Part shown: piece after piece, positions 9,891 through 26,035 of the stretch
Numbering within the stretch: the stretch's first letter is position 1
Layout: every line of letters starts with the position of its first letter
Source of the DNA: a virus
Direction: 5' to 3' (one strand)
Length of the DNA: 37,672 nt
IMG/VR virus record: IMGVR_UViG_3300042868_009638
Location: 1-37,672 of that record
Program-made: the position numbers and the translations under genes
The notes under the pieces: generated by a model
Seen by the model: the letters and a program-made list of their open reading frames with translations, nothing else
What the model was told of the DNA's origin: nothing
The model's database searches: none

Positions 9891-10550
9891 TTAATTTCTT
9901 CTTTCGCGTTGTTTTCTTGCGTCTGCGCCATAGTTTTCGAGGAGAGCAAAGCTAACTGCCCCTCTCATAGCCAGAGTGTCGTCAACATCCAAAGGCAAAC
10001 CGGATTCTTCAACTTCTTTTAAGGTTCGAAAAACCTTTGCAAACTTCAATTGATTTTCAGCGATCAGATGATCTTCACGACCACCGTATGAGGCTTGCAG
10101 CGTGAGGTTTTCGGGAACCTCTGAACGTCGGCGCAGCCAAAAAGCAATTGACTTTGTGAATGCCCAGAAAGTTACTTCCATTCGAGATCGGCAAACACTT
10201 AACCAGGCATCAAAGTACGCTTGGTTAAAGAAGTCTCCGCCTCCGTGAATCCGAACGTGACTAGCGGATTTCGGCAGAGCGACAGAAATCATAGAAACCA
10301 TTTCGTCAAACGACTTCCTGCGTAACTCGTCAAAATTAACCCATCGCACACCACGGACAGCAGGGTAGCGCTCCACGACTGCGGCATAGCACTTAAACTC
10401 CTGCTTTGGTCCATTCGTTTGCTTGCCAGTGTCCCTGTTCGCAGTTGTTAAGCAGGCTTCTGCTAATGGGCAAGAGTGTCCCGCTGGCAAGTTGAACTCC
10501 CACACGGGGAACTGGTAGTACCCTTTTTTGATCTTTGTGAACTTTATCAT
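9891..10550 (-). CDS. GP88-family phage protein
   Basis: A 219-residue protein that I assign to the phage 'gene product 88' family by its pattern: an N-terminal Cys cluster (GHSCPLAEAC and later FKCYAA), then RIHGGGDFFNQAYFDAW and FWAFTKS. The biochemical role of this family is not established. Cys residues at the N-terminus followed by a histidine and glycine-rich strand end suggest a metal-binding site, possibly Fe-S, which is inference. The start overlaps the csrA stop by ATGA. A second, more diverged member lies at 24912-25691. Confidence 0.75.
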   Translation of the reverse strand: MIKFTKIKKGYYQFPVWEFNLPAGHSCPLAEACLTTANRDTGKQTNGPKQEFKCYAAVVERYPAVRGVRWVNFDELRRKSFDEMVSMISVALPKSASHVRIHGGGDFFNQAYFDAWLSVCRSRMEVTFWAFTKSIAFWLRRRSEVPENLTLQASYGGREDHLIAENQLKFAKVFRTLKEVEESGLPLDVDDTLAMRGAVSFALLENYGADARKQRERRN

Positions 10551-10928: not shown

Positions 10929-10963
10929 ACCATGCCGGAAAACTTTGTTTGAGGAGAATCTCT

Positions 10964-12655
10964 GTGAGTGTTGCGTCCAGTGATGTGCTGCAGTTGGTGG
11001 AATTTGGCCTGTATCCGGTGCGTCTGCATTATCCAGCGTTCGAGCAGGACAGGGTTCTTTGTTCGTGTGGACGCGAGGACTGCAAAGCCCAGGGCAAGCA
11101 TCCCGTCGGCAATCAATGGGGCAAATCTGCTACGCAGGATCCGGAAGTTATCTCAGAACAGTGGGGCGAGAAGCCGTGGAATTGCGGGATCATTCTGGGC
11201 CTGTGTCACGGCATTCCGGAAGAGCAAGCCATCATCGACATCGAAGATGATACGCTCGAAGGCCGAGCGATGGCAGATGCTCTTCTGGCCGATTACCCAG
11301 CGCCGACGTACACCTCTGGGAAAAGCCTTCACCGAATCTATCGCTGGAGTTCTGGACTGCCACCAGTCGCCAACATGACGATCAGCGGACTTGAGTTTCG
11401 CTTCGGAGGCAAGGGTAAAGAGACCCAGTCCGTCGCGCCGCCGTCAATTCACCCGAGCGGGAAAACTTACCAGTGGTTGGAGGGTAAATCGCCGTCTGAT
11501 ATCCCGATCGGGAAGCTGCCGCAGCATGTTGTCGACTACCTCTGCGAGGAATACGCTCGTCAGGGCTCCGTGGCTCCTCGTGGTGCGTCGACAACGGATG
11601 CGTCGAAGTTCCGTTCGCCCATGGGCAAGATCGGGCCTGGTGCCCGCCACCACAGTCTCCTGAAGTATGCGAACAGTTGCTGGCGTGATGCCCTGCTGAA
11701 GTACGGGATCAATGGACTGGAGGAGCAGGAGGCAATTGATCAGGTGTGGATGTGGTTGGCAGGGGCAAACCTGCTGGTCTGCGATCCGCCGAAGACCGAG
11801 GCGGAACTGCACACGATCTTCCAGAGTTCTCAGCGATTCATGCTGGGCGAGTTTCAGAAGGAGATCGAGGCGAATACCGATCTGACTGATCCGCAGCCGG
11901 CAGACAATTCTGATCGGACGCTGGGCGGATGGCTGCATCGGCACGGGATCCGGATGGTCGCCGATCCCCGGGTGGAGTCTGGCGCGAAAAGCATCGACCG
12001 GATCGACGAGTGGCAGAGTAACTGGTCGATGAAATTCGTGACCAAGGCCGACGAGGAACTGGTCGCACAGCTCGAGTTCGAGTCGCCCGTGGCAGTGGCC
12101 CGGAAGATCCAGACGGAGACCAACGGCAAATGGCAGTTGTCCAGGACGTTCCCGGTCTGGGAATGGGATTCGATCTGGAAGGGACGCGCAAACGACAAGA
12201 AGCGCGAGAACGGGATCACGCGAGGGCTCCGGGAATACCTATCAAACTCGGCGAAGGTCGAAGAGAAAGTCGAGAACAGCCTGGCCGAGCAGACCGAGTC
12301 GCTGATCGCCGGGATGGTTGGGCCTGTCAGCCCCGTGATGGACAAACTCGATGAAGCCGTCGAGCGCGGGCACGGGATCCACACCTGGACCAGCAGACTC
12401 AAACTCACTCCGATGGGAGATCTCGCCAGTCACAAGGCTCCGGAGGATCCGACGAGCGGCCTGTACGTTCACGAGGAGAAGGTGTGGAAGCTGATCAAAT
12501 TCGACGAACTCATGAAACGCTACCGAGGCAGTTATGGCTCCGGAGTTCCGAGCCGAATGCTGACCGAATGCATGGAAAAACTGCGATACCAGAAGAAACA
12601 CATCAGGTCCGGACCACTCGAAGGACGATGGTATGGGAAAATGGTAGATAAATAG
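10964..12655 (+). CDS. Prim-pol type primase/polymerase
   Basis: A 563-residue replication protein. The N-terminal 190 residues match the archaeo-eukaryotic primase (prim-pol) domain: a Cys cluster CSCGREDC and GKHP at 33-46, the catalytic acidic pair D92/E94 in IIDIEDD, S121-L-H123, and APPSIHPSGKTYQW at 158-171. Such proteins make primers and can extend DNA. The C-terminal 350 residues are helical and carry no Walker motif, so the helicase function must come from another gene. GTG at 10964 has GAGGAG 7 bases upstream; a frame back to a TTG at 10949 overlaps that site. First gene of the rightward early operon. Confidence 0.9.
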   Translation: MSVASSDVLQLVEFGLYPVRLHYPAFEQDRVLCSCGREDCKAQGKHPVGNQWGKSATQDPEVISEQWGEKPWNCGIILGLCHGIPEEQAIIDIEDDTLEGRAMADALLADYPAPTYTSGKSLHRIYRWSSGLPPVANMTISGLEFRFGGKGKETQSVAPPSIHPSGKTYQWLEGKSPSDIPIGKLPQHVVDYLCEEYARQGSVAPRGASTTDASKFRSPMGKIGPGARHHSLLKYANSCWRDALLKYGINGLEEQEAIDQVWMWLAGANLLVCDPPKTEAELHTIFQSSQRFMLGEFQKEIEANTDLTDPQPADNSDRTLGGWLHRHGIRMVADPRVESGAKSIDRIDEWQSNWSMKFVTKADEELVAQLEFESPVAVARKIQTETNGKWQLSRTFPVWEWDSIWKGRANDKKRENGITRGLREYLSNSAKVEEKVENSLAEQTESLIAGMVGPVSPVMDKLDEAVERGHGIHTWTSRLKLTPMGDLASHKAPEDPTSGLYVHEEKVWKLIKFDELMKRYRGSYGSGVPSRMLTECMEKLRYQKKHIRSGPLEGRWYGKMVDK

Positions 12656-14697: not shown

Positions 14698-14711
14698 CGG
14701 AGTCCTTTGCC

Positions 14712-14948
14712 ATGGATGCGCAGCCAGTACAAACAGCCGAACAGTTTGCAACAGAACTGCATGCTCGATGGATGCGGGAACTCTCTGACCGCAAGCGAGG
14801 CTTCTACGGCGAGCCCGACGATTACTTTTACATCCGCCTCGGGAAATTGCACCGACTGGCGGGGACGTTTTACCTTTACAGGGATTCAGACGGAGGATCA
14901 GACAATGCCACGAGACTCCGGGAGTCCATCATTGAACAGGTCGAGTGA
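14712..14948 (+). CDS. Small unknown protein
   Basis: A 78-residue protein with GGAG 9 bases ahead of ATG. It has an aromatic centre (GEPDDYFYIRLGKLHR) and a helical end. No domain recognised. Its 3' end overlaps the next gene by 44 bases. Confidence 0.6.
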   Translation: MDAQPVQTAEQFATELHARWMRELSDRKRGFYGEPDDYFYIRLGKLHRLAGTFYLYRDSDGGSDNATRLRESIIEQVE

Positions 14949-15192
14949 TGTTGTTGTCGGCCAGGTCTTCGGCCTGCTGACAGTGGTCTCAGCACCGTAC
15001 CGAGTAAGATACTCAGCAAAAGGTGCGCACTACCTCGTGATGGTGCAATGCAGTTGCGGATCGCCGGAGAAATCCGTCAAAGTGCAGATGCTCCGCATCC
15101 ATCGCACGAAAAGCTGTGGCTGCATGAAAACGCAGAAGCACTGGTCCATCATGAACGGCAAATCAGGGAAAAAGGAGAAACCGAATGGTTAA
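14905..15192 (+). CDS. Zinc-ribbon protein of the HNH-associated type
   Basis: A 95-residue protein. ATG at 14905 has GGAGGA 7 bases upstream. It begins with VGQVFGLLTVVS and then carries VQCSCG and SCGC, a pattern I associate with the DNA-binding zinc-ribbon found alone or fused to HNH and AP2 phage endonucleases. Here no nuclease part follows, so it is probably a free DNA-binding element. The C-terminus is basic (GKSGKKEKPNG). Confidence 0.7.
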   Translation: MPRDSGSPSLNRSSDVVVGQVFGLLTVVSAPYRVRYSAKGAHYLVMVQCSCGSPEKSVKVQMLRIHRTKSCGCMKTQKHWSIMNGKSGKKEKPNG

Positions 15193-17890: not shown

Positions 17891-18066
17891 TGATCGATCG
17901 CAGAGACAACTACAACGGTTTCGAAAACTTCGACTTCTTCAATGATGCCCAGGACACCGAACGGTGGCTCCGGCGCGTCGATCGAAAAGACGAAGCTAAC
18001 GAACTGAATCTGAAAACTCTCGAGTGGTTCGAGAACTGGAAGCAGGAAATCAGGAGCAAAAAGTAA
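17890..18066 (+). CDS. Small acidic protein (58 aa)
   Basis: A 58-residue frame starting at ATG 17890, which shares a TGATG with its upstream gene, and ending in TAATG. It is charged and helical (DTERWLRRVDRKDEANELNL). No family recognised. Support is its exact coupling on both sides. Confidence 0.55.
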   Translation: MIDRRDNYNGFENFDFFNDAQDTERWLRRVDRKDEANELNLKTLEWFENWKQEIRSKK

Positions 18067-18632
18067 TGGGCGAAATGACGTACAACAAACTCTCCGGATG
18101 GGTCAAAGTCGACGGAGTCAGGGTCGGCCAGGAACGAAAGAACGGCAGAGTCCTCCGAGTTCCTGCCGGAACGTTCAATGGGGTGCCAGCGTTCCGCATG
18201 ATCCCTGAACAGCAGTGGATTGTCGAAACAGAAACCGCCATCACCACAAATCCCCAGACGATCATTCACCTGAACGGCGATCCGTTCGATAATCGCTGGA
18301 AGAACCTGCGCGTCGGTGATGCCATGGAAGTGGCGCCAGGGAATGATCAGTGGCTTGCTGGTGCTCTGAAGGAGCGGTTCCGGAATCCGCTCGGCGAACT
18401 TTTGCTGATGTATGTGCCGGAAACGGGGGAGATCCTAGCAAACGAAGGCGATCTGGGCAGCAGGATCGTTATGGTCGACGATCGCCCTGTGGTCTTTTGG
18501 GCCGGCGTGTGGTTTGCTGCCGAAGAAGTCGCCTGGTTCCTCGGGACCGGCGTTTGGCCGGAACGCGGGGTGAAGATCCTGAATGGCGAGTATTGTGATT
18601 TGAGGCTGGAGAATCTCAGGAGGATTGTGTGA
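18066..18632 (+). CDS. Tandem HNH-like protein, second site decayed
   Basis: A 188-residue protein with two HNH-like modules. The first has HLNGDPFDNRWKNLR at 68-82, with the His, Asn and DNR-NLR residues expected of an HNH nuclease. The second (about 108-188) has the usual N-terminal pattern (YVPETG, then VWFAAEEVAWFLGTGVWP) but its signature is ILNGEYCDLRLENLR, with Ile where the catalytic His should be. The protein may be a partly decayed homing endonuclease or a DNA-binding protein. Start at ATG 18066 in a TAATG junction. Confidence 0.65.
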   Translation: MGEMTYNKLSGWVKVDGVRVGQERKNGRVLRVPAGTFNGVPAFRMIPEQQWIVETETAITTNPQTIIHLNGDPFDNRWKNLRVGDAMEVAPGNDQWLAGALKERFRNPLGELLLMYVPETGEILANEGDLGSRIVMVDDRPVVFWAGVWFAAEEVAWFLGTGVWPERGVKILNGEYCDLRLENLRRIV

Positions 18633-19645: not shown

Positions 19646-21838
19646 ATGCCTGAAACTACGGTTGTAGTAGGTTGCGCGGGGAGCGGAAAAACAGAATTTG
19701 CTATGAATTTGCTGGAGGAGAGGCTTCGCGGAGGTTTACGATGGTCACAGATTGGCTACAGTAGCTTCTCCAGATCAGCTTGCTTGGAAGCGGCCCAGAG
19801 AGCGTCGAGGCTCACTGGCGTCGATTCTGATCGGCTGCAGCGTGATGGGTTCTTTCGGACAATCCATTCTGCTGTTCTTCGCTTGCTGGGACTGGATCCA
19901 AAGACTATCCTTGATCATGAATCGGCTGAAGGTAAGCGATTCATGACCGAAGTTCTCGGGGCTCCCAGAGGTGGTGAGCCTGGGACTCTATCGGCGAAAA
20001 TTGATGATGCGTTGAACTGGTGGGATTTGCAGCGGTCGCGTTTGAGCCGCGTAAGACGAATCGATGAACCCGTAGGGGTATACAAAACCAGCGATCACCC
20101 TGATCAGGCATGTTCGGGCACGTTCACGCATCCGCCACGCGCTGGTGGCGCTCATTTTCCCAGTGAATTCGGCGTTTTTTCTGATCCTAGCTTATGCCTA
20201 TATAGGGGAAATGGAATTTCAGAAAAAGAAAAAACACATGCACCTATACGCGAAAATGTTATTTTGGGTGGCGGGTGTGTACTTTCATTAAAAAATCCCC
20301 TATATATGGGGATAATCGATCCGCCGCCACCCACCTTGAACAGGGTGCCGGTGGGTAGTGCGGGTGCCGGGGCAATGGATAAGATAGGAGCTTTAGGTGA
20401 GATTATTGGCAAGTACGAGAGTCAGAAGCGTGTTTGGGGCAAGCTGGACTTTTGTGACCTTCTGTTCAAGTATGCAGGTATTCGAGTCGATGAGAACCTC
20501 GAGTTTCAGGAAACGTACCCCGAGGGATCTGTTCCGGCTGAAATCGACATTTGGATCATCGACGAGTTTCAGGATTGTTCGAGCATCTTGGATCGCTGCT
20601 GCCAGAGGCTCGCAGAGGCCGCTGGAGAGCTTTGGCTGCTCGGGGACGTATATCAGTCCGTCTACGGATTCAGCGGCTCAGAGTGGCAAATAATGCGATC
20701 GAGGGAGTTGCAGGCCAAAGAAGAAGGGAGACGTGTAGTTCTGAACAGGTCTTGGAGGAACCCGGAGCCAGTGATTGAGTGGGGCGAAGACATTCTGAGG
20801 AGAGATCCGCAGTATGAGTCGAGGGAGCCGGTTAGCGAGACCGGAGAAGGAAGCACTGGTTTGGTGGAATGGAAGGAATTGGTAAGATTACTGCCGCTGC
20901 TGGTGAATTCAGACACGATGGTCCTCAGTCGCACTTGGTTTAACCTTGGGAAGGTTACGCAGTTTCTGGACTCTGCGGGGATTCCGTGGAAGTCGATTCA
21001 GGAAAAGATGAAGTCTCGCTGGGAATCGCCGGTGCAGATTGCTTTCGTCCTGGTGATGAGGGATCTTCGGGATGGAAAGAGGATTAGTGAGAGCGACTGG
21101 AGGCGAGTCACCGAGGAACTGCCTCAGAAGATGGATGGCAAGGAACTGTTCGTCCGTGGGGCGAAAGCCAAGTGGAAGAAGATCGAATGCAGCCAAGAGC
21201 CTAAACGGACGTTGGACGAACTCGAGGAATGGGGCGCTGGGCCTGAGTTCGCAGATTTCATTCGCTCCGAGCGATGGCGAGTAGACAAGGTGCTGCTGCT
21301 GGACCAAGCCATCGACCGATTCGGAATCGAATGCGTCAGAGATCCCGGCCTGCGATTGGGATCCTGTCACTCAGCGAAAGGTCTTGGGGCAAGGAACGTG
21401 TTTGTACTTGCTTCGAGCACTGAGAAGGCGAGTGGTGCTGCGGTGGACTTCTACGAAGACCTGTTCCTGAAGTATGTTGCCATTACCAGAACCAGAGAGA
21501 ACTACAGGCTGGTGGTCGACCAGATGGACTTGGCGCGAGGAAAGCCGATGTTCTGGGCGGCTCCGCAGGGATTCAGGGAGTTCGTCAGTTTGCCAGAAGG
21601 AGCGTTTCGTGAAAGAGAGCGAGATACAGACGAAGATTTTGAGGTGGGCGGAGAAACTGCCGGAAGTCTGGATTGTGAAGTATCCGGGGGGAACCTACGG
21701 TCGGAAGGGAGTCCCGGACCTGCTGCTGTCAGTGAAGGGGAAGTTCCTCGCGATCGAGGTGAAGAAGCCGGGAGGCAAGCCGACTCAGATGCAATTGATG
21801 GAGCAGGCGAAGATTCGTATGACTGGATCTCGATCTGA
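19646..21838 (+). CDS. UvrD/Rep-type superfamily 1 helicase with unusual insertion
   Basis: A 730-residue ATP-dependent DNA helicase. Walker A VGCAGSGKT at 8-16, motif Ia near SSFSRSA, TIHS at 72-75, motif II IIDEFQD at 304-310, GDVYQSVYGFSG, LNRSWRNPEPVIEW, motif V SCHSAKGLGA and motif VI KYVAITRTRENYRLV are all present. Two parts are abnormal. Residues about 139-243, between the N-terminal motifs and WGKLDFCDLL, look unlike a helicase and coincide with an AT-rich palindromic stretch. Residues about 655-730 run across the downstream nuclease gene in another frame. Removing both gives about 550 residues, the normal size. ATG at 19646 with AAGGA was chosen over an in-frame start at 19628. Confidence 0.9.
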   Translation: MPETTVVVGCAGSGKTEFAMNLLEERLRGGLRWSQIGYSSFSRSACLEAAQRASRLTGVDSDRLQRDGFFRTIHSAVLRLLGLDPKTILDHESAEGKRFMTEVLGAPRGGEPGTLSAKIDDALNWWDLQRSRLSRVRRIDEPVGVYKTSDHPDQACSGTFTHPPRAGGAHFPSEFGVFSDPSLCLYRGNGISEKEKTHAPIRENVILGGGCVLSLKNPLYMGIIDPPPPTLNRVPVGSAGAGAMDKIGALGEIIGKYESQKRVWGKLDFCDLLFKYAGIRVDENLEFQETYPEGSVPAEIDIWIIDEFQDCSSILDRCCQRLAEAAGELWLLGDVYQSVYGFSGSEWQIMRSRELQAKEEGRRVVLNRSWRNPEPVIEWGEDILRRDPQYESREPVSETGEGSTGLVEWKELVRLLPLLVNSDTMVLSRTWFNLGKVTQFLDSAGIPWKSIQEKMKSRWESPVQIAFVLVMRDLRDGKRISESDWRRVTEELPQKMDGKELFVRGAKAKWKKIECSQEPKRTLDELEEWGAGPEFADFIRSERWRVDKVLLLDQAIDRFGIECVRDPGLRLGSCHSAKGLGARNVFVLASSTEKASGAAVDFYEDLFLKYVAITRTRENYRLVVDQMDLARGKPMFWAAPQGFREFVSLPEGAFRERERDTDEDFEVGGETAGSLDCEVSGGNLRSEGSPGPAAVSEGEVPRDRGEEAGRQADSDAIDGAGEDSYDWISI
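20060..20374 (+). other. Structured in-frame insertion within the helicase gene
   Basis: About 315 bases between the helicase N-terminal motifs and its second half. It contains inverted repeats TATATAGGGGA (20199-20209) with TCCCCTATATA (20296-20306), a near-palindrome ATCCCC-TATATAT-GGGGAT (20295-20313), and GGGTGGCGG paired with CCGCCACCC around it. The composition is AT-rich in the centre and CCA/GGT-rich at the flanks, unlike neighbouring codons. The reading frame is kept, but the translated peptide shows no helicase motif. It could be an inserted element, a cis-acting site or an RNA structure. Confidence 0.6.
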
Positions 21839-21896
21839 GATCGTTGAGAGCTTTGTTGAGGCGAAGTTGATTATTCTGGAGGTGTGGAATGGCTAA
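21609..21896 (+). CDS. VRR-NUC nuclease
   Basis: A 95-residue minimal nuclease of the VRR-NUC family. GTG at 21609 has AAGGAG 6 bases upstream. The PD-(D/E)xK core is seen as GVPDLLLS (D37), then LAIEVKK (E50, K52) and Q60, with YPGGTYGRKG before it. Such small phage enzymes cut branched or flapped DNA and often sit beside a helicase, as here. The gene overlaps the last 230 bases of the helicase frame in a different frame, which is unusual. Confidence 0.93.
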   Translation: MKESEIQTKILRWAEKLPEVWIVKYPGGTYGRKGVPDLLLSVKGKFLAIEVKKPGGKPTQMQLMEQAKIRMTGSRSEIVESFVEAKLIILEVWNG

Positions 21897-22353
21897 AGGC
21901 GGATTCGATCGAGTCGATATTGTGAAGAACGAGACGACCAGACTCTGGGACGTTACGGTTGATTTTCTCGGGGAAAGAACACTTGTTGGATCTTACGGAT
22001 TTCTTGATGAGGCGATAAGAATGCACAAGAAGTCAAAGAAAAACGCAAGTGTCGCGGCGAAAGAACAGGCACTGAAGATCGCTTCTGAAAAGTCAGCGTC
22101 TGATCATGTTGCCGCTTATCTGAAGACAATCCCAAAGAACAGGATCCTTACGCTGACAAAGAAGAACAAAAGTGGAGCGGTAGGAGTGACCTACAGCGAA
22201 AATCGGCAAAGGTGGAGAGCAAGTATCAGCGTGAATGGTAAGAGGATACACTTGGGGTTCTTTGAAGAGAAAGAACGCGCCATCGCTGCCAGAGAAGCTG
22301 CAAACCGGAAGTACGGCTTCGTGAATGTGAGCGAATTGACCGGAGAAACATGA
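21889..22353 (+). CDS. AP2-domain DNA-binding protein
   Basis: A 154-residue protein. The C-terminal half is a clear AP2-like domain: SGAVGVTYSENRQRWRASI, then GKRIHLGFFEEKERAIAA and KYGF. The N-terminal half (LWDVTVDFLGERTLVGSYGF) may be a second diverged AP2-like unit. There is no HNH part, so it is a free DNA-binding protein, perhaps left from a homing endonuclease. It overlaps the nuclease gene stop by 8 bases. Confidence 0.8.
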   Translation: MAKGGFDRVDIVKNETTRLWDVTVDFLGERTLVGSYGFLDEAIRMHKKSKKNASVAAKEQALKIASEKSASDHVAAYLKTIPKNRILTLTKKNKSGAVGVTYSENRQRWRASISVNGKRIHLGFFEEKERAIAAREAANRKYGFVNVSELTGET

Positions 22354-22714: not shown

Positions 22715-22911
22715 CAGTGAATTCGATGTGATGACTAACAATTCGGCTCGGATGAAATCCTCTGGCGGCGCTGTCGTCTGGGGATCAGGGGAGTCCCATG
22801 GGAATCCGTGGGTAATGTGATAAAAGCGCAGAAGCACATTTCTCCTGATCGACCAAACGTCGAAACGTCATTATGACGATTTGCAGGATCGACGCAAGTG
22901 CTGCTGCTACA

Positions 22912-23044
22912 GACGTGCCTCTGCTGCCGGTCTTGATCTGCCGACCTGCCTCTGCTGCCGACCTGCCTCTGCTGCCGACCCGCCTCTGCTGCCGACCCGC
23001 CTCCGCTGCCGACCTGCCTCCGCTGCCGACCTGCCTCCGCTGTA
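22912..23044 (+). repeat. 17-bp tandem repeat array
   Basis: Six near-identical units of GACCTGCCTCTGCTGCC from 22943 to 23044, plus a diverged copy at 22912-22928 and a 14-base partial spacer. Variation is limited to T/C at two positions. The 17-base period is not a multiple of 3, so an open frame through it is not a protein repeat. Confidence 0.9.
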
Positions 23045-23107
23045 GCTCCTGCTGCTTCCGCTACTGAAGCCTCCCCGGATCGCCCCGCCGGCCCACACCG
23101 GACAACC

Positions 23108-23193
23108 AGATATCCTTGTATTAATACAAAGATATCTTTAAGTATTAATACAAAGATATCTTTAAGTATTAATACAAAAAGACAAAGATATCC
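23108..23193. repeat. AT-rich palindromic repeat array
   Basis: Three 24-base units starting at 23119, 23143 and 23167. Each combines TTGTATTAATACAA (perfect palindrome at 23116-23129) and AAAGATATCTTT (palindrome). It is the most AT-rich block in the window, sits between two iteron-like arrays and could be a DNA unwinding element. Confidence 0.85.
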
Positions 23194-23220
23194 TATTTTC
23201 GGCTGTCCTTATTATGTATC

Positions 23221-23448
23221 CCGGCAGATCCCGAGTATCCCGGCAGATCCCGAGCATCCCGGCAGATCCCGAGCATCCCGGCAGATCCCGAGCATCCCGG
23301 CAGATCCCGAGCATCCCGGCAGATCCCTGAGCCTCCGGCAGATCCCTGAGCCTCCGGCAGATCCCTGAGCCTCCGGCAGATCCCTGAGCCTCCGGCAGAT
23401 CCCTGAGCCTCCGGCAGATCCCTGAGCCTCCGGCAGATCCCTGAGCCT
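23221..23448 (+). repeat. 19-bp tandem repeat array, 12 units
   Basis: Twelve units at exact 19-base spacing. The first five follow CCGGCAGATCCCGAGCATC and the last seven follow CCGGCAGATCCCTGAGCCT, so the array has two sub-families with a sharp switch at 23316. The length and spacing are typical of iterons, but the array could also be a neutral satellite. Confidence 0.9.
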
Positions 23449-23557
23449 CTCATTGTTTTCCTAAAATTATTCTTTCTTTCTATTTACAATGGTCCCGCAT
23501 TCTCTAAGATGCCGATTAGTCATTTTGTCAATTCAACACTTTTGAGGAATCGAGACC

Positions 23558-24911: not shown

Positions 24912-25691
24912 ATGAAATTATTGAGCCCAGCTTCGGCCAACACCAAAACGAGAAAATCAGCGCTCAAAGCCATGGAATACCGCATCGTATCGTTGATGCT
25001 TTCCCCGCACGATTCAGCCGGCGGAAAAACGAATTGTGCGAACGCCTCAAAATCCTGCGCGGCCGCTTGCGTAGGCGGTCCTGATGTGGGATTGTCGCAG
25101 GTTTTCAAATCGATTCAGATCAGTCGAGAAAATAAGACCCGATTCCTTCACGCTGACCGCGCGGGATTCCTGAAACAACTGCGCGAGGAACTGACGGCAG
25201 AACAACGGCTCGCAGATCGGGACGGAAGTATTCTGGCAGCCAGGTTGAACTGCTTTTCGGACCTGAATCACTTCGGAATAATCCGGGAATTCCCGGAAGC
25301 AATTTTCTGGGATTACACCAAAATTTATTCCAGGGTAATCGACCCGCAGCGCCCGAAGAATTACGCTCTTTGCGCGTCATGGACCGAGGAGCCTAGCGAC
25401 CAAACGTCGTGCCTGAATTTACTCCAGGCAGGACACAACGTCGCCGTAGTATTCGCCGAGCCGGGGAACTTCACCGGAAACCGCGCGTTGAACCAGCGCC
25501 TCCCGAAACGCTGGTCGCTGGGCTCGCATACTTACGAAGTATACGACGGAGATGATTCCGACCTGAGATTCCTCGACCCGGGACCAACCCGCGCAGGATT
25601 TGGCCGCATATGCGGTTTGCGGCTGAAGAGCGGCAATTCACAAATGAGATTGGAGGCAATGGCCAGTGGCTTTTGCCAGATTATTGAGTAG
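24912..25691 (+). CDS. Second GP88-family phage protein
   Basis: A 259-residue protein with the order seen in the phage gene product 88 family: Cys cluster TNCANASKSCAAAC near residue 42-53, RLNCFSDLNH, the FWDYTK segment, and a C-terminal CGLRLKSGN. The family has no established reaction. It is larger and closer to the family core than the copy at 9891-10550. It lies alone between two terminators, so it forms its own transcription unit. The ATG has only a weak upstream site. Confidence 0.75.
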   Translation: MKLLSPASANTKTRKSALKAMEYRIVSLMLSPHDSAGGKTNCANASKSCAAACVGGPDVGLSQVFKSIQISRENKTRFLHADRAGFLKQLREELTAEQRLADRDGSILAARLNCFSDLNHFGIIREFPEAIFWDYTKIYSRVIDPQRPKNYALCASWTEEPSDQTSCLNLLQAGHNVAVVFAEPGNFTGNRALNQRLPKRWSLGSHTYEVYDGDDSDLRFLDPGPTRAGFGRICGLRLKSGNSQMRLEAMASGFCQIIE

Positions 25692-25740: not shown

Positions 25741-25749
25741 GTGCGCCGA

Positions 25750-26035
25750 CTGCAGGCCGGTGATCTCGGGTCGCGACTGCAGGCCGGTGATCTCGGGTCG
25801 CGACTGCAGGCCGGTGATCTCGGGTCGCGACTGCAGCCGGTGAGCTCGGGTCGCGACTGCAGGCCGGTGATCTCGGGTCGCGACTGCAGGCCGGTGAGCT
25901 CGGGTCGCGACTGCAGGCCGGTGATCTCGGGTCGCGACTGCAGGCCGGTGATCTCGGGTCGCGACTGCAGGCCGGTGATCTCGGGTCGCGACTGCAGGCC
26001 GGTGATCTCGGGTCGCGACTGCAGGCCGGTGATCC
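25750..26035 (+). repeat. 27-bp tandem repeat array, 11 units
   Basis: Eleven units of CTGCAGGCCGGTGATCTCGG plus GTCGCGA, starting at 25750, 25777, 25804, 25831, 25857 and then every 27 bases to 26019 (last unit partial). The fourth unit is 26 bases and the fourth and sixth carry GAGCTC instead of GATCTC. Each unit has palindromes CTGCAG and TCGCGA. Frames through it are open on both strands but are artefacts of the period. Confidence 0.9.

Follow-up and report, generated by a model that had tools for sequence, protein, structure and literature searches.

What kind of element lies, in frame, inside the UvrD-type helicase gene of this phage: an inserted mobile piece, an element removed from the RNA, a segment bypassed during translation, or a replication site placed inside a gene? 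These four possibilities were raised by a first-pass annotation of the window, i.e. the whole stretch of DNA analysed here, a viral record of 37,672 bases whose genes include those for terminase, portal, Prim-Pol, and SNF2-type and UvrD-type helicases.

The helicase gene and the borders of its insert

The product of the gene, which runs from an ATG at 19646 to the end of the ORF at 21838, possesses a Walker A motif and a DExQD motif, matches the Pfam family UvrD-helicase (PF00580) at 2.5e-16, and is modelled with a helicase fold that matches PcrA, UvrD and Rep in fold comparison. It therefore belongs with the PcrA/UvrD/Rep SF1A helicases (PF00580, phrog_1967), whose single-fold core it shares; what sets it apart is the insert, absent from all 27 aligned insert-free relatives.

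19646–21838, plus strand: helicase ORF, host gene of the insert; SF1A helicase of PcrA/UvrD/Rep fold, 730 aa, phrog_1967
20057–20377, plus strand: in-frame insert of ~107 codons, a loop predicted to be unfolded, between helices 115–132 and 242–264 of domain 1B

The insertion is real, and the borders first assigned to it (20060–20374) agree almost exactly with the segment of low AlphaFold2 confidence (residues 138–244, i.e. 20057–20377) and with a loop that is 94 residues longer than that of insert-free relatives. The annotation was also right in seeing no helicase similarity in the segment, for which a Pfam search returned no family up to E = 1. Relatives were collected by scans of viral contigs, which gave close ones first and then a wide family; scans of genome contigs gave none at first and then remote ones only, and tblastn of the helicase against annotated phages found no match at 1e-5 and, with a loose limit, remote helicases only. 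The alignment with related helicases that had been proposed as a check was made for 37 of them, and sets the borders by the length of the domain 1B loop: the span between two fixed points of this domain amounts to 156–199 residues in ten helicases, the window's included, and to 60–62 residues in the other 27. In a tree computed without the insert columns, the ten carriers form one clade (support 100/100) and all fall on one side of a single branch. One gain on that branch suffices to explain their distribution; the tree being unrooted, loss on the other side is possible. Equivalents of the insert occur in contigs from different metagenomes, which makes misassembly unlikely. Nor do the homologues carry the segment as a normal folded domain: they have it, but with no conservation of protein sequence, and the copy in the window is predicted to be unfolded.

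At its downstream end, the helicase gene is overlapped in another frame by a VRR-NUC-like nuclease ORF (21474–21896). The helicase tail at this overlap (residues 658–730) is predicted to be unfolded, and its end bears an acidic-aromatic motif similar to that of relatives (EDSYDWISI / EDQEQWWNL). Several HNH/AP2-type endonuclease genes lie near the helicase (21889–22353, 14707–15192 and 18024–18632), the AP2 one directly after the VRR-NUC ORF. The phage has two genes of the GP88 family (PF17338), at 9894–10550 (minus strand) and 24912–25691 (plus strand), and the second is directly followed by a 27-bp tandem repeat in 10.7 copies (CGACTGCAGGCCGGTGATCTCGGGTCG; 25747–26034). The two contig ends of a 56.6-kb relative carry one and the same 8-bp tandem array (CCTCCGGG, 16 copies; L119 1–127 and L121 16489–16615); the relative may thus be complete, unless the contig merely broke within a repeat.

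Probable translation of the insert and constraint on its peptide

Is the insert translated at all? The helicase frame is open in nine of the nine inserts tested; the other two forward frames contain 2–17 stops, and the reverse frames have stops in all but one case. The window's insert keeps the frame, as annotated, with no stop, an outcome with a chance of 0.004 for this insert alone; shuffled inserts have an open frame in 0–1.1% of cases each, and the joint chance is ~1e-22 for the eight counted. The insert is therefore probably translated, being neither spliced nor bypassed.

What, then, does selection preserve in it? The AlphaFold2 pLDDT is 26–32 in the insert and exceeds 90 in most of the helicase core, and substitutions in the insert show no codon-position bias, as opposed to the third-position bias of the flanks. 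In the first half of the insert, two close relatives, L002 and L003, are all but identical, third positions included, whereas ~40–60% of the third positions in their upstream flank differ. Silent change so close to zero is expected of a DNA site, recent exchange being the alternative for that pair. Selection apparently keeps the frame open and hardly anything else at the protein level, and we are confident that the insert is some cis-acting DNA site within a translated loop. Over the helicase gene as a whole (19646–21838), silent sites have diverged strongly from L002 in the first part and little beyond the insert, a shift suggesting that a recombination break may lie near the insert.

Iterons, their layout and a putative origin

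The anatomy of this DNA is as follows:

20073–20106, plus strand: DNA block whose 34 bp recur unchanged in L002 and almost unchanged in L003, even at silent sites; within it lie a GGGTG core in reverse (CACCC, 20096–20100) and the palindrome GATCA-CCC-TGATC
20132–20150: reversed iteron CCGCCAC and hairpin CGCCAC-GCGCTG-GTGGCG; a different hairpin there in L002 and L003
20154–20313: A+T-rich core, candidate unwinding element; GC 0.38, among the lowest 0.08% of the window's 160-bp stretches
20199–20210, plus strand: box TATATAGGGGAA, close to the same place in several relatives
20236–20257, plus strand: conserved DNA ACATGCACCTATACGCGAAAAT, immediately before the middle iterons
20266–20277, plus strand: two overlapping middle iterons, GGGTGGCGG and GGGTG
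20295–20313: palindrome ATCCCCTATATATGGGGAT (ATCCCC/GGGGAT); on the minus strand a hairpin followed by a T run, terminator-like
20324–20332, minus strand: reversed iteron CCGCCACCC
20343–20351, plus strand: right iteron GGGTGCCGG
20362–20370, plus strand: right iteron GGGTGCCGG

The segment had been called structured on account of nested palindromes, all of which are indeed present: besides ATCCCC/GGGGAT, these are TATATAGGGGA/TCCCCTATATA at 20199–20209/20296–20306 and TGGGTGGCGG/CCGCCACCCA at 20265–20274/20324–20333. The term suits the DNA repeats; it suits the RNA less well, whose folding z-score varies from -0.65 to -2.0 with the ends chosen. Positions in repeated 7-mers (both strands) number 57 in the window's insert against 20.1 expected, a value reached in none of 300 dinucleotide shuffles, and 19 against 20.1 in a control stretch of equal length taken from this ORF; repeats of 7 and of 8 bases both exceed the shuffles in the insert and not in the control. 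Across relatives, repeats likewise exceed shuffles in the inserts, which ORF controls as a rule do not, the signal being weaker in the inserts of L003 and L028.

Most of these phages have a short repeat of their own kind, that of the window being GGGTG(G/C)CGG (e.g. GGGTGGCGG):

L002: GATCACCC and GGGTGGCGG
L003: GATCACCC
L004: GGGACA/GGACACA
L024: CTAGTGCGAGTGTA
L028: TGACGG
L029: CGGATCACC and GGTGGGAG
L039: GTGTGACA
L040 and L041: GGCGTTGC

When each iteron was compared with the inserts, it matched chiefly its own. The copies also concentrate there (9 of 9 within the insert in L024, 9 of 11 in L039 and 6 of 8 in L041), and the nine copies of L024 fall within 382 bp, with none elsewhere in its 37-kb record. 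What these phages have in common is an arrangement. Reversed and forward iterons stand at 27:5 in the left half of the inserts and at 3:35 in the right half (Fisher p = 3e-11). In this count the window, L002, L003 and L029 are represented by the core GGGTG; its true weight is somewhat less, given that the close relatives L002 and L003 enter separately, and it is not fully independent of the choice of cores, these having been picked by eye from the sequences counted. In L039 and L041 alike, spacings of 8 and 78 bases separate the first three forward copies, although their letters differ. Within one insert the iterons occupy several codon phases; it is therefore the DNA that is conserved, and not a peptide repeat. 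The A+T-rich middle falls within the lowest 0.02–1.2% of the 100-bp stretches of each record, less markedly in L040/L041, and boxes near the centre (TATAGGRG, CGCGAAAAT and CCCTATATA) recur at comparable positions in roughly one half to two thirds of the inserts, their consensus sequences having been drawn from the same data, so that their P values are descriptive only. The layout persists while the iteron letters differ between phages.

An origin that an initiator opens is built in just this way, of clustered iterons adjoining an A+T-rich tract. On the strength of this likeness, we think it rather probable that the insert is an iteron-type replication origin housed in a tolerated loop of the helicase, and among the four possibilities named at the outset we favour the replication site placed inside a gene, given the phage-specific polar iterons around an A+T-rich core from which we infer the origin function. 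A candidate initiator would bind the iterons and open the core, and the opened site would load the replication proteins of the phage (Prim-Pol and helicases), thereby serving as the origin; the helicase would tolerate all this because the site sits in an exposed loop. Which protein might be the initiator? A search for it gave no clear candidate. One possible iteron binder is encoded by the following gene:

10949–12655, plus strand: Prim-Pol gene; C-terminal ~65 residues modelled as strands and two helices

The modelled C-terminus looks winged-helix-like by eye, and the sequence of the segment matches an MCM-family chain only marginally (E 0.9). The GC skew of the window shows no switch at the insert, and is uninformative because the genes run mostly one way. 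UvrD-type helicases are not known as initiators, which counts against an origin. A search of the open-access literature brought up no previous description of an origin inside a gene for a UvrD-type helicase.

Could the site instead serve another DNA-binding protein, as a site for partition or packaging, as an operator array, or as a fork trap whose polar sites are inverted, while the origin lies in an intergenic region 2.5 kb downstream of the insert? Inverted polar arrays occur in fork traps too, and that region is both repeat-rich and A+T-rich:

22904–23449: three intergenic tandem arrays, 17-bp in 8 copies (CTGCTGCCGACCTGCCT), A+T-rich 24-bp in 2.5 copies (GTATTAATACAAAGATATCTTTAA) and 19-bp in 12 copies (CCGGCAGATCCCTGAGCCT)

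Similar arrays follow the helicase gene in several relatives, and those of the window may be an origin, in place of the insert or alongside it. They run head-to-tail, however, without the polar layout of the insert; the protein searches brought up no recognisable partition gene, and the terminase gene is ~7 kb away. We regard this explanation as the main rival, though clearly the less likely one. Considerably less probable is that the inverted repeats of the left and right sides pair into a functional RNA or mRNA structure that, for example, controls translation of the helicase. The two arms of the insert are complementary, hairpins of differing sequence stand at the same place near 20133 in the window and in L002/L003, and folding z-scores go as low as -2.0 in the window and, on one strand, -3.5 in L003. 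Yet plus-strand z-scores are inconsistent among relatives (-1.3 to -2.7), iteron copy numbers are unequal on the left and right, and a consensus fold is unsupported by its covariation term (+3.5), so that folding of the inserts, singly or by consensus, gave no consistent signal; Rfam covariance models run against the insert at gathering and permissive thresholds likewise gave nothing credible.

The small constraint on the peptide, together with the abundance of tandem repeats in these phages, where neutral expansion of repeat tracts is possible, would suit a functionless linker that gains repeats by slippage; such a linker is hard to reconcile with the polarity of the iterons, with their occurrence on both strands in several codon phases, with near-zero silent change in part of the insert, or with the identical 34-bp block and the persistence of the insert throughout the clade, and we consider it very improbable. 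A self-splicing intron, an intein or a translational bypass segment would account for an in-frame insertion of plausible size, and the peptide KTSDHPD within it superficially resembles an intein block B, a lead only. Against these stand the nine open frames, which argue in particular against a bypass of the T4 gene 60 type, the lack of any credible Rfam match to a group I/II intron or other known RNA family, and the absence of an intein/Hint profile match or of any Pfam family for the segment; we give all three next to no credence, and the RNA-removed element and bypass segment of the first-pass annotation are accordingly unlikely. Its inserted mobile piece does not fit as a recent arrival, since the insert occupies the same loop throughout one well-supported clade, where one change suffices, and no copy was found elsewhere in the searches.

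Meaning and comparison with known systems

The protein loop apparently serves to carry a control site in the DNA, with selection acting on the DNA repeats and on the open frame and hardly on the peptide; disordered insertions of hypervariable sequence in phage enzymes may be mistaken for features of the protein. If the insert is the origin, then nature has provided, in these phages, a series of some six iteron specificities on a single layout, and with it a direct way to the matching initiator and to the reason why origin recognition sequences change so fast. It is conceivable, although we propose it with considerable doubt, that the origin has been kept in the helicase loop while an arms race with origin-targeting elements or nucleases replaced its iterons wholesale and repeatedly, preserving layout and frame.

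The closest parallel is the origin of phage lambda, whose iterons and A+T-rich tract lie in the middle of gene O; in Stx phages related to lambda, two extra iterons in O add 13 residues to the protein (PMC6022878, PMC7466680). Here as there, iterons clustered in the coding sequence of a replication gene adjoin an A+T-rich tract, in frame, and encode a stretch that is flexible (by prediction in our case), and a change in iteron number alters the length of the protein. In contrast, O encodes the initiator itself, whereas the carrier in the window is a UvrD-type helicase with the site in its domain 1B loop, and Pfam and PHROGs assign it to helicase and ATPase families only; the iterons of the window's group, moreover, face opposite ways to the left and right and vary from relative to relative. 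The insert would thus work like a lambda-type origin, but with a carrier gene that is not O-type we do not class it as a member. A second parallel is found in the RepA/ori modules of PLE satellites, iteron origins with a covarying initiator that are attacked by the phage nuclease Odn (PMC8263062). Unlike the window's insert, the PLE origins are intergenic and their initiator is known; in both systems, the type of replicon persists among relatives that differ in origin sequence, and the turnover of iterons described here recalls, speculatively, that of satellite origins under attack by an origin-directed nuclease.
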